From: a candidate division KSB1 bacterium
Lineage (GTDB): Bacteria; Zhuqueibacterota; JdFR-76; DREG01
Assembly: GCA_022566355.1 (NCBI GenBank)
Contig: JADFJB010000146.1
Coordinates: forward strand, 1 to 10,648
Length of the DNA: 10,648 nucleotides
Reading direction: 5' to 3'
A model generated the notes under the pieces. It was not told the origin of the DNA. It did no database searches and was given only the letters and a program-made list of their open reading frames with translations. Of the stretch, positions 136-10,648 are shown one piece after another; the stretch's first letter is position 1; each line of letters starts with the position of its first letter. The position numbers and the translations under genes are program-made.

Positions 136-516
136 ATGGCCAACAATGAGATGTTAATCATAAAAAAGGGCTATGATTTTTCCAAATGGCTGTTGCACCA
201 TACCGGCAAGTTTCCCAGGAGTTATCGTTTTAGTGTAGCGGCCAAGCTGGAAAACGGTATTTTGGATTTTATCGAAGCAACCACAGTTGCGAATATGAGA
301 AAAAACAAAATACCCTTGTTAAAACAAGCGGATGAAGCGCTGGCACGAATGCGGTTGTTATTCCGGTTAAGCTATGAAATGCGTTTTATCAATTTAAAGT
401 CTTATGAATTCGGCAGCAGCCAATTGGTCGAGTTAGGAAAGCTTCTTGGGTTGAAAAACAATGTTATAACTTTTTATCGTAAATTTGAAGAAAATCTCCA
501 GTTAAAAACTTGTTAG
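136..516 (+). CDS. avd: Avd, accessory protein of a diversity-generating retroelement
   Basis: A 126-residue, basic, mainly helical protein of the size and pattern of the Avd / S23 four-helix-bundle family. In the studied Bordetella phage DGR, Avd forms a positively charged homopentamer that binds the reverse transcriptase and the template RNA and is needed for mutagenic cDNA synthesis. Recognisable features are the N-terminal stretch ending GKFPRSYRFS (about residues 24-33), helices rich in basic and hydrophobic residues (33-60, 62-88), and the C-terminal helix with LGKLLGLKNN (about 101-110). The start is supported by GTGAGGA about 9 nt upstream of the ATG. The gene sits between the target-protein tail and the reverse-transcriptase remnant, the standard DGR order, and appears intact even though the enzyme it would serve is truncated. 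A stand-alone four-helix-bundle protein of the same superfamily is the alternative, but the neighbours favour Avd. Confidence 0.88.
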   Translation: MANNEMLIIKKGYDFSKWLLHHTGKFPRSYRFSVAAKLENGILDFIEATTVANMRKNKIPLLKQADEALARMRLLFRLSYEMRFINLKSYEFGSSQLVELGKLLGLKNNVITFYRKFEENLQLKTC

Positions 517-523
517 AGATAAG

Positions 524-551
524 TCCCCTCTCTAGAGGGGAATTATTATTT
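524..551 (+). terminator. Possible hairpin terminator after avd
   Basis: CCCCTCT pairs with AGAGGGG (525-540) just 8 nt after the avd stop, followed by the AT-rich AATTATTATTT. It could terminate transcription of avd. The same CCCCTCT/AGAGGGG palindrome recurs in the repeat upstream of the DUF559 gene, so it may instead be a solitary copy of that repeat's hairpin. The run of T is poor, which keeps the terminator reading weak. Confidence 0.35.
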
Positions 552-655
552 ACATTGAAATGCTAAAAAATAATAGCTATTCACTAATTATCAGTATGAA
601 AGAGCAGTCGAAAACTTGTTGTAGATTATTTGATCGAAGTAAGGGAAAGTAAAAA

Positions 656-697
656 GAATTCCAAATTCCCCTCTTGAGAGGGGATTTAGGGGTGTGT
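656..697 (+). repeat. Left hairpin-containing inverted repeat of the DUF559 unit
   Basis: The 42-nt block starts GAATTCC, contains the imperfect palindrome TCCCCTCTTGAGAGGGGA, and ends AGGGGTGTGT (688-697). Its last ten bases are the exact reverse complement of ACACACCCCT at 1118-1127, and its GAATTC matches the GAATTC at 1154-1159. The two blocks have the same length, orientation and arrangement: outer GAATTC, hairpin, inner ACACACCCCT. Together they enclose the DUF559 gene. Confidence 0.7.
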
Positions 698-726
698 AAT
701 TTTACTTTAAAAAAACCCATTAACTC

Positions 727-1104
727 ATGCCAAAACGCAAAATTATACCATACAATCCAAAACTAAAAGAATTTGCCAGGAATCTCCGCAATAACAGCAC
801 GTTATCTGAGATATTACTTTGGAAGAAACTAAAAGGAAAACAAATTCGCGGTTATGATTTTCACCGTCAAAAACCGCTTGATAATTATATTGTTGATTTC
901 TTTTGCAATGAACTGATGTTAGCCATAGAGATCGATGGTAGAAGTCACCATTACAAAGTTTTAGCAGATCGAGAACGGCAAAATAGTTTAGAATCATTTG
1001 GAGTCCATTTTCTTCGTTTTACAGATTATGAAGTCAAAACGAACATGGACAATGTAATTAGAGTTATTGAAGCGAAGATAATAGAACTTGAAGCGAAGGA
1101 TTGA
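727..1104 (+). CDS. DUF559 / Vsr-like endonuclease-fold protein
   Basis: A 125-residue protein of typical DUF559 length. This family is related to the very-short-patch repair endonuclease Vsr and has the PD-(D/E)XK nuclease fold; its biological role is not established. Visible signature: LRNNSTLSEILLWKKLK (20-36), FHRQKPLDNYIVDFFC (45-60), IEIDGRSHH (67-75), DRERQNSLESFG (81-92) and LRFTDYEV (96-103). Likely catalytic acidic residues are D57, E68 and D70, all present, so the domain looks complete and probably active. There is no convincing ribosome binding site before the ATG (a CCATTAACTC leader); expression may be weak. The gene is enclosed by matching inverted repeats and separates avd from the reverse-transcriptase remnant. 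This suggests it arrived as a separate unit and is not a native DGR component. A host repair or restriction-associated role cannot be excluded. Confidence 0.85.
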   Translation: MPKRKIIPYNPKLKEFARNLRNNSTLSEILLWKKLKGKQIRGYDFHRQKPLDNYIVDFFCNELMLAIEIDGRSHHYKVLADRERQNSLESFGVHFLRFTDYEVKTNMDNVIRVIEAKIIELEAKD

Positions 1105-1117
1105 TTGTTAGGTGAAT

Positions 1118-1159
1118 ACACACCCCTGAAAATGCTCCCGTCTGAACGGGAGGGAATTC
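1118..1159 (+). repeat. Right hairpin-containing inverted repeat of the DUF559 unit
   Basis: ACACACCCCT (1118-1127) is followed by a stem of CTCCCGT/ACGGGAG (1135-1152, loop CTGA) and by GGAATTC. It mirrors the block at 656-697 in length and arrangement. The stem bases differ from those of the left block but the hairpin is retained, as expected if the structure matters. It lies 13 nt after the DUF559 stop codon and could also act as its terminator. Confidence 0.65.
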
Positions 1160-1184
1160 ATGGAGCCAATCCTCATGTCGAATT

Positions 1185-1784
1185 CCTTCTATCGACCATG
1201 ATATTTTAAAATCTTTAATACATAAGCGAATCGTGTGTAATTTAACGTTATCTTTGATAGATACAATTATTGACCACAGCAATCCTCAAGTGTATGTGTT
1301 CGAGTATTTTCCGGGAGATGATCTGTTTACTCCATTTGAACGACGAAGAGGTTTACCGATTGGTAATTTAACCAGCCAGTTTTTTGCAAATTATTATCTT
1401 AACCCGCTTGACCATTTTGTAAAAGAAAAGTTAAAGTGTCAGGGATATATCAGGTACGTAGATGATTGTGTGCTTTTCTCGAACTCCAAAAGTGAATTGC
1501 GAAATTGGAAAAGGAATATAGCAGATTTTCTAGAACATTTTCGTTTAAGATTACATCCCGATAGATGTCAAATCTATCCGGTAAAAAATAGCAGCCGATT
1601 TTTGGGTCAAGTTATTTTCAGAACACACAGAAGATTATGTTCAAAAAATGTTCGGAAATTTAAGAAACGGATTTATATATGGCAAGAATATCCATGTGAA
1701 AATATACAGCAACGCGTGGCCAGTTGGATTGGCCATGCAAGGCAAGCAGATACTTTCTGCTTGTTAAAATCTTTAGGTCTATAA
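1185..1784 (+). pseudogene. DGR-type reverse transcriptase, 5'-truncated
   Basis: Homology begins at PSIDHDIL (from 1185) and runs in one open frame to a TAA at 1782-1784, about 199 residues against the roughly 330-400 usual for DGR reverse transcriptases. Retained parts are [20 protein letters not shown] (around 1350-1410), where IGxxxSQ is the signature that separates DGR enzymes from group II intron RTs, the catalytic YVDD (1455-1466), FLGQVIF, and the C-terminal thumb with [12 protein letters not shown]. Missing are the N-terminal fingers and the aspartate that normally precedes FFPSIDH by a few residues, one of the metal-binding residues. The only plausible internal start is GTG at 1233, without a good ribosome binding site. 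An in-frame stop at 1143-1145 closes the frame upstream. In a working DGR this enzyme copies the template repeat with errors at adenines; here it can hardly be active. Confidence 0.88.
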
Positions 1785-3794: not shown

Positions 3795-4043
3795 GACTTA
3801 GTTGTAATCATATTTCTTTTAGAAAAGTTAAACTTTATAATATTTCGACAAATGTACAGTATGCGCCCTTCGAAATGTTGCTAGTTGTTGAATCAGTAAT
3901 TCATTGTAAATTTAGTTTCAAATCATTTGAATGAATCAAAACTAAGACGCAGGCAGAAACTAACGATAAGCGGACTCATTCTTCAACCCGTTTTCCATAT
4001 TTTGAATTTACTATTGACTTTTATCTATTATCAGTTTTTTTAT
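3795..4043. other. Convergent intergenic region
   Basis: This ~250-nt AT-rich gap lies between two convergent genes. A small stem, CTTTT/AAAAG around 3817-3828, lies near the aminotransferase stop but lacks a proper T-run. I see no gene, RNA or strong terminator before the tandem array. Confidence 0.4.
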
Positions 4044-4134
4044 TTTCGTCTTTCGTCTTTCGTCTTTCGTCTTTCGTCTTTCGTCTTTCGTCTTTCGTCA
4101 ATCGTCAATCGTCTGCCGTCTATCGTCAATCATT
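4044..4134 (+). repeat. Heptanucleotide tandem array (TTTCGTC)n
   Basis: Eight perfect TTTCGTC units run from 4044 to 4099, followed in register by AATCGTC, AATCGTC, TGCCGTC, TATCGTC and a final AATCATT. The last unit contains the stop codon (complement of 4130-4132) of the permease gene, so the array reaches the coding region. On the permease strand the unit reads GACGAAA, so the array would form its 3' untranslated RNA. Units nearest the gene are diverged while the distal ones are identical, consistent with recent expansion on the distal side. A 7-nt unit shifts any reading frame, and no gene uses it. Confidence 0.95.
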
Positions 4135-6550: not shown

Positions 6551-6640
6551 ATTTACCTCAAGGATTAGTGGTATGACTCATTGGAAAGAAATGAATTAAT
6601 TATTTAGACGATTAGAATCCTGATTAAGTTTAAGTGAATA

Positions 6641-6710
6641 TTTTTTGACAGGATGAACAGGATGAACATGATTATTCATCTTTGTAAATCCTGTTCATCC
6701 TGTCAAAAAA
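6641..6710. repeat. Interspersed palindromic repeat, GGATGAACAGGAT family, copy 2
   Basis: The arms 6641-6663 and 6688-6710 are perfectly complementary over 23 bp (TTTTTTGACAGGATGAACAG plus GAT on the left) around a 24-nt loop. The core matches the diverged copy at 2263-2333. It sits between two same-strand genes. On both strands the stem is followed by A, not by T, so it is not a standard intrinsic terminator, but such a hairpin could stabilise the 3' end of the amidase mRNA. The perfect pairing suggests recent insertion or selection on structure. Confidence 0.85.
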
Positions 6711-6730
6711 ATTCTTGAAGTTTATGAAAT

Positions 6731-9966: not shown

Positions 9967-10527
9967 ATGGAAACTGACAGACTGAAATGGAACAAGAAAT
10001 TTTCCAGTCGACTCTACGAATTAAAGCAACCGGAACCATTCGTGGTTCGCCATATCGATTTGCTGCACAACAAAACCGTGCTTGATCTTGCTTGCGGGGA
10101 TGGTAGAAACGCCATTTATTTGGCATCCAAAGGCTATTCTGTTACCGCCATAGATATTTCCGATGTTGCATTGGATAGATTAACACACTTTGCTAAAGAA
10201 GTTCATGTACAAATAGCAACGAAACAAATGGACCTGGAACTTGCGGAAGAGCTGGATCAGTCGGGTGTATTCGACAATATCCTGGTAAATTCCTACAAAC
10301 CTTCTCAAGCACTATGGAATAAACTGCCTTCATTACTACAAAAAGATGGCATCCTAATCATGACCGTGTTTAATATGTTACAACATCATAAGCACGGTTT
10401 TTCCAGCCAATTTTGTGCGGAAGAGTCTGAGTATTTAGATGCTTCTTTGGAATTGGAGGCTTTGGAGTACGAGAAATTAAGCTATAATGAGAAGTATCTG
10501 GATGGCTATGTATTTCGTAGAAAATAA
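9967..10527 (+). CDS. Class I SAM-dependent methyltransferase, TehB-like
   Basis: A 186-residue Rossmann-fold methyltransferase. Motif I is TVLDLACGDGRNAIYLA (37-53), with the SAM-binding acidic-glycine loop DLACGDGRN (40-48). D63 in AIDIS should bind the ribose hydroxyls, MDL (88-90) is the adenine-contacting segment, and FDNILVNSY (102-110) corresponds to the strand carrying motif IV. The GDGRNAIYLASKGYSVTAID layout is that of the TehB/YcgJ-like group, which methylates small molecules; TehB itself acts on tellurite and selenite. The substrate here cannot be inferred. Length suits a minimal single-domain member. No clear ribosome binding site precedes the ATG (ATTCGATTAACA leader), so the start is less certain. 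It lies 101 nt after the preceding gene, with a short hairpin in between. Confidence 0.88.
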   Translation: METDRLKWNKKFSSRLYELKQPEPFVVRHIDLLHNKTVLDLACGDGRNAIYLASKGYSVTAIDISDVALDRLTHFAKEVHVQIATKQMDLELAEELDQSGVFDNILVNSYKPSQALWNKLPSLLQKDGILIMTVFNMLQHHKHGFSSQFCAEESEYLDASLELEALEYEKLSYNEKYLDGYVFRRK

Positions 10528-10648
10528 ATTCCAAATGACAAGCACCAAAAAACAAATAACCTGCACTATTCATAAATTCATAGTATTAAGCTTGAAGTTT
10601 CAAAAGTGTCATCCCGTCGCGCAACGGGATCTATTTCCATAAAATTAA
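10528..10648. repeat. Intergenic repeat fragments at the window end
   Basis: ATTCCAAATGACAAGCACCA directly follows the methyltransferase stop and looks like a widespread intergenic repeat that I associate with FCB-type genomes. ATCCCGTCGCGCAACGGGAT (10612-10631) is a hairpin with a 7-bp stem and 6-base loop of REP type; it is followed by CTATTTCC, so it could weakly terminate transcription. Both identifications rest on general resemblance. Confidence 0.4.

Follow-up and report, generated by a model that had tools for sequence, protein, structure and literature searches.

The window (the whole 10,648-nucleotide stretch analyzed here, from a candidate division KSB1 bacterium) carries near its left end two genes of a DGR with a small nuclease-like gene between them. 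An avd-like gene (bAvd) lies on the forward strand at positions 136–516 (Pfam PF22296, E = 1.5e-15), and a 5′-truncated DGR-type reverse transcriptase (RT) occupies 1185–1784 on the same strand, reading from PSIDHD to its end (tblastn with full-length relatives; RVT_1). The gene between them, at 727–1104 and also on the forward strand, is an intact DUF559 gene of 125 aa (PF04480), YcjD/Vsr-like and of the EDxHD-type PD-(D/E)XK kind, in which the family-invariant residues are present. It is the only gene between two inverted arms (685–698 and 1117–1130) that are 93% complementary over 14 nt. The initial annotation of a lone DUF559 gene enclosed by inverted hairpin repeats is thus borne out, the Pfam match having an E-value of 1.6e-29 (102 bits against a cut-off of 20.6).

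The two arms contain an exact 10-mer, AGGGGTGTGT at 688–697 and ACACACCCCT at 1118–1127, with hairpins on the outer sides of the 10-mers (668–683 and 1135–1152) and a GAATTC at each margin (656–661 and 1154–1159). The left motif (656–697, forward strand), which has copies elsewhere in the genome, consists of GAATTC, the hairpin CCCCTCTTGAGAGGGG, a linker ATTT and a third-strand box, the 10-mer, directed toward the gene. The right end (1118–1159, reverse strand) consists of the box, a linker hairpin, CTCCCGTCTGAACGGGAG, and GAATTC. A strict search pattern in which the box was joined to GAATTC gave 0 matches, since in the repeat the hairpin precedes the box. Folded as single-stranded DNA, the left hairpin has a z-score of −1.9 and the right hairpin one of −4.0. 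The paired blocks had originally been bounded at 656 and 1159; their shared 10-mer, GAATTC and hairpins were confirmed, but 656 is not the left edge. In a blastn search of 517–1200 against the same genome, left homology edges fell at query positions 69–79 on five contigs (C105, C157, C44, C68, and C113), reaching approximately 589, and a left arm common to other copies of the element spans 589–655 on the forward strand.

The stems of the two blocks had also been described as differing in sequence while keeping their fold. Both do fold, and they look unlike because an outer CCCCTCT..AGAGGGG stem is missing from the right end in the window, where only the linker hairpin is left; sister copies (L041 and L045) have a right end with this outer stem plus the linker hairpin. 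A triplex detector found no triplex at the decayed right end, and because of this decay the window copy is probably stuck. No transposase was found between the element ends (window ORFs, Pfam), no clean target-site duplication was identified, and no cytosine-5 methyltransferase was present among the window ORFs scanned, which include one TehB-type SAM methyltransferase at 9967–10527.

A second, gene-less remnant of the element lies directly upstream (499–587, forward strand), composed of a left-arm fragment (499–520), a hairpin (521–545; z = −3.8 as single-stranded DNA) and a right-end tail extending to approximately 587, with matches to C68:4138–4200 (92%) and to the right end on C105. Its first part, at the end of avd, repeats 605–626 at 82% identity, and the remnant extends into avd at its 3′ end, where it supplies the last codons of that gene. 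On the other side, a junction at 1160–1184 connects the element to the truncated RT, whose homology to full-length DGR-type relatives (L249–L251, 341–360 aa) starts abruptly at 1185 in tblastn alignments, so that around 152 N-terminal residues of some 350 are missing. The window therefore has avd and a truncated RT in place of the avd and full-length RT of a DGR. Relatives retain both genes and have no DUF559 at their RT loci. Of the earlier proposal that the element sits where the DGR was broken and replaced part of it, the truncation of RT at the junction stands. A clean insertion does not: the damage involves a deletion beside two remnants of the element, which may have caused the loss or may have settled there later.

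Other repeats occur in the window. Positions 10605–10645 (GTGTCATCCCGTCGCGCAACGGGATCT) resemble the CGTC-tagged REP type, which has no known enzyme (PMC3733652). A further palindromic repeat, of type gattaacaggat...atcctgttaatc / gaacaggatgaaca...tcctgttcatcctgtc and unrelated to the motif flanking DUF559, occurs twice (2259–2335 and 6640–6712), and a tandem heptamer (TTTCGTC, ∼8–9 copies) at 4042–4105 separates an aminotransferase-like gene from one for an FtsX-like permease.

The window protein is a probable nuclease. E28, D57, D70, H74, and D81 are invariant in the family and E68 is invariant or nearly so, and all are present. The AlphaFold2 model (pLDDT 91.6) has as its nearest solved folds a Neisseria endonuclease-like protein (3hrl, Z = 16.4), the homing endonuclease I-Bth0305I (Z = 12.5) and Vsr (Z = 9.8), so that DUF559 does have mobile kin. 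The gene is not inside an intron.

The flanking block has three parts. A hairpin is followed, after a short linker, by a G-rich box whose sequence is the mirror image of the purine arm of the stem, with T in place of A. The left end, TCCCCTCTTGAGAGGGGATTTAGGGGTGT, reads as Y-loop-R-linker-third strand. The stem arm AGAGGGG, reversed, is GGGGAGA and the box is GGGGTGT, so that G stands opposite G and T opposite A, as the purine triplex code requires. The same architecture is seen in the E. coli BoxC/PIT/triplex motif (CCCTCNCCCN3-6GGGNGAGGGN3GGGNGAGGG), for which a triplex has been shown in vitro and of which MG1655 has 23 copies, with no transposase or integrase remnants found nearby and with loci that vary among E. 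coli strains (PMC4666352). The window repeats are not of an unknown type: by their sequence they belong to this class, and they are predicted to fold in the same way. Across all loci the third strand scored 6.07 against its own stem vs. 5.47 (SD 0.07) against the stems of other loci, and in a second phylum 7.07 vs. 5.90 (SD 0.16), differences to which shared ancestry contributes in both cases; none of 2000 permutations gave an own-stem fit as high.

Chance does not account for the inverted pair. GGGATTTAGGGGTGTGT has six exact occurrences in the 4.6-Mb genome; counted as linker plus box, the copies number six exact and four with one mismatch, and with up to three mismatches allowed the pattern gives 23 matches (8 for a reversed control). 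DUF559 copies are found on five contigs: that of the window (C146), C139 (decayed, 83% identity, one TGA stop), C105, C157, again decayed, and C82, where the copy is distant and its hairpins differ. The copy on C105 retains the N-terminal 55 codons and then passes directly into the right end, and C113 has a left end, a gene fragment and a right end; both are internal deletions. Bare left ends (C122, C90, and C139:2255), bare right ends (C26, C193, C134, and C185) and an outward-facing pair of ends (C43) complete the inventory. Additional DUF559 copies in the genome carry the same block, and gene-free and decayed copies exist.

Among 99 genomes of relatives and outgroups, 39 had a homologue of the window protein, and we compiled 80 named loci from Bacteroidota, Planctomycetota, Nitrospirota, Cyanobacteriota, Bacillota, Myxococcota, and others. 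Flank-vs.-flank inverted-repeat scores exceeded the 99% control level at 52 of 79 named loci and 15 of 27 whole-genome loci. Boxes assigned to classes faced the gene upstream at 72 and downstream at 78 of 110 loci, as compared with 1 of 93 upstream and one downstream at a distance of 1.2 kb, and the class was the same at both gene ends in 40 of 60 cases (8.3 expected; maximum of 21 in 10,000 shuffles). Given that these classes were drawn up from the discovery loci, we ran a class-free triplex detector, which found the motif upstream at 40, downstream at 42 and at both ends of 30 of 79 loci; in another phylum the corresponding numbers were 17, 15, and 12 of 27. This class-free test and the second phylum answer the discovery-set bias of the box classes in part only. 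The detector returned 0 of 64 far flanks (1.2 kb) and none in shuffles. Distant DUF559-like genes in viral contigs, used as a contrast set, had motifs at 3 of 72 and 1 of 72.

Box type is tied more closely to the protein than to the host. Mapped onto the protein tree, box class requires 22 changes vs. 47.6 in shuffled data, and within Bacteroidota alone eight vs. 19.4 (none of 1000 shuffles as low), and one genome (G015) has five DUF559 copies with different boxes, each copy matched at its two ends. In the phylum of the window, for which wider sampling gave no species beyond 82, the median number of motifs per genome was 10 with DUF559 and 0 without it (p = 2.6e-6), a difference that was not significant within families (p = 0.12). 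Three genomes of this phylum (G002, G080, and G069) hold 42–137 triplex-pattern matches with DUF559 not detected, including 137 in G080 and 72 in G069, both incomplete assemblies; G002 carries variants such as GGGGTACGGGGG. The motifs in these genomes may reflect a different enzyme or the loss of the gene.

Several loci show signs of mobility. A methylase-type gene of G009, which we take to be of the DUF1156 type, is interrupted in frame by a two-ended unit of 490 bp, and homologues in G024, G035, and G071 are continuous through the insertion site, with no unit. At six loci (L104, L114, L141, L144, L149, and L164) DUF559 is fused in frame to the N-terminus of a host gene through peptide linkers encoded by the hairpin or motif; the fusion partners look like threonine dehydratase, shikimate kinase, RecQ, QueG, and RseP. 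Direct duplicates of the whole motif cluster often bracket the gene (131 bp at 97% identity in L387, 80 bp at 91% in L380, and 197 bp at 82% in L383), and in L377 (G120:C46:4300–6164) the motif cluster and DUF559 are together tandemly duplicated; the two units share 98.5% identity across 800 bp, and a third motif cluster closes the array.

In E. coli, DUF559 is represented by YcjD, encoded between sapF and fabI, and BoxC units adjoin ycjD on its 3′ side only. The ycjD region was present in 3362 of 5426 complete E. coli genomes. Among sampled genomes, those with ycjD had 11–28 BoxC-type matches (median 20, n = 37) vs. 1–22 (median 3.5, n = 22) in those without it, a difference (p = 1e-8) for which phylogroup is a confounder; BoxC remnants persist in strains lacking ycjD, with up to 22 matches. 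The interval between sapF and fabI was considered as an empty site and rejected: ycjD-negative strains have the eef efflux region there (PMC12817139), which makes this a replacement with no clean empty site. The alx–sstT interval was likewise rejected, the ST131 strain having a deletion inside a BoxC pair. Between trpS and yhfZ, a BoxC unit is present in H240 and absent in S88. A comparison of three strains at this spot (L297, L316, and L317) gives BoxC in H240, nothing in S88 and an apparent REP/BIME pair in DSM 498; unrelated small repeats thus settle at one place.

The reading that we favor, at a probability of roughly 60%, is that a DUF559 gene and the motif copies surrounding it form one selfish unit, made up of a nuclease plus the DNA structure on which it acts. 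Each end would provide two arms, one of pyrimidines and one of purines, and a third strand able to fold back as a purine-type triplex. Extrusion of the motif in single-stranded or cruciform form, as might happen on the lagging strand, would let the nuclease recognize it and nick or cut beside it, after which host repair would copy or join the segment elsewhere; it is by such a route that we infer the nuclease to move the palindromes. Two inward-facing ends with a gene would constitute an autonomous unit and an internal deletion a miniature one, while a bare motif or doublet would be REP-like and mobilized in trans. Recombination between copies would explain why entire end clusters are directly duplicated on either side of the gene, and the E. 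coli pair would be YcjD and BoxC. The data show the association of gene and motifs, their orientation, the matching of the ends, co-diversification, the classes of copies and insertion polymorphism; recognition, cutting and the transfer route are the proposed part. Counting against a selfish unit, a PD-(D/E)XK nuclease by itself lacks the chemistry for strand transfer. The reading is further weakened by the BoxC units on only the 3′ side of ycjD, the phylogroup confounding, the BoxC-rich strains without ycjD, the within-family p of 0.12, the motif-rich genomes in which DUF559 was not detected and the motif-poor DUF559-like genes of viral contigs.

The main rival is homing into motif sites, whereby the nuclease cuts gene-less motif sites and break repair copies the gene in, the motifs being targets spread by other or host processes. 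The closest characterized relative of the protein is a homing endonuclease, I-Bth0305I, and both the cluster duplicates (L387, L380, and L383) and the G120 tandem fit insertion into, or recombination between, motif sites. Gene-free and internally deleted two-ended units at unrelated loci are harder to reconcile with homing, as is the in-frame insertion in G009 where the homologues have no motif, and homing alone leaves the spread of the motifs unexplained. We regard homing as unlikely; it may also coexist with a selfish nuclease-repeat pair. Still less probable is that recombination-prone, motif-rich intergenic spots collect small genes, with DUF559 a bystander and the motifs terminators or inert. 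The variable BoxC loci of E. coli (PMC4666352) and the apparent REP/BIME at the trpS–yhfZ spot in another strain are what such hitch-hiking would predict, but the consistent inward orientation of the motifs, their matched ends, their co-diversification with the protein tree and their near absence from flanks 1.2 kb away are not. A host role, in which DUF559/YcjD would serve repair or suppress recombination by resolving or removing triplex-forming repeats and would be kept nearby for regulation, has in its favor the Vsr-like fold and the tie of Caulobacter VsrA (DUF559) to a DNA damage response in the absence of the methylase ScmA (PMC12907096), but it is improbable given the patchy presence of the gene, the several decayed copies per genome and the association of the gene with more motifs, not fewer.

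A selfish nuclease-repeat unit of this kind has partial counterparts among known systems. It shares with BoxC/PIT/TM_ECO (PMC4666352) the Y-loop-R-linker-third-strand order, many intergenic copies, the occurrence as singletons and inverted pairs, and a patchy distribution among strains; unlike the E. coli sites described there, for which no linked mobility gene is reported, the variants in other phyla flank DUF559 and their box varies with the protein. REP/REPIN-RAYT systems (REPtrons; PMC3733652, PMC8266576) similarly have short palindromes, paired in inverted orientation on either side of a gene for a small endonuclease, together with gene-free copies elsewhere and diversifying repeats. The REP/RAYT-like arrangement with an unrelated nuclease that the initial annotation proposed is upheld in its anatomy: where RAYTs are HUH single-tyrosine transposases (TnpA_REP) with a GTAG tag, the window protein is a DUF559 protein with a Vsr-like PD-(D/E)XK fold, no GTAG was found beside the hairpin of the window ends, which carry the 10-mer box instead, and a third triplex strand is added. 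EDxHD homing endonucleases (I-Bth0305I, 3r3p) resemble it in fold, in the conserved acidic/histidine pattern and in being selfish nucleases, but the DUF559 gene lies outside any intron or intein, is flanked by structured repeats and, at 125 aa, encodes little beyond the catalytic domain. Also similar are the Rickettsia palindromic elements and the CGTC-tagged REPs (PMC3733652), palindromes that lack a known enzyme and of which some lie in frame in genes; their stem and tag differ, and the CGTC-tagged REPs were for this reason ruled out as a partner of DUF559. A literature search covering non-subscription papers found none linking DUF559 or YcjD to the triplex-motif repeats.

DUF559 is paired with triplex-type repeats in many phyla, and the E. 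coli form of this pairing, YcjD with BoxC, suggests that a nuclease-repeat mobile system has been overlooked. More tentatively, and with odds that we place somewhat below even, DUF559/YcjD proteins may be the enzymes dedicated, throughout bacteria, to mobilizing intrastrand-triplex repeats. They would add to REP/RAYT and homing endonucleases a third type of nuclease-repeat partnership, in which the foldback triplex would be the signal, nuclease and triplex would co-evolve, and BoxC would be the non-autonomous offspring. To our knowledge, the BoxC/PIT repeats of E. coli have been known since the 1990s without a function or mobilizer, and similar G-rich palindromes are abundant in many bacterial genomes. 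E. coli K-12 has both YcjD and BoxC, and the question is therefore directly testable there. If DUF559 acts on triplex repeats, a large class of repeats would gain a cause, the widespread DUF559/YcjD family would gain a role, and DNA triplexes would gain a possible role in biological recognition.
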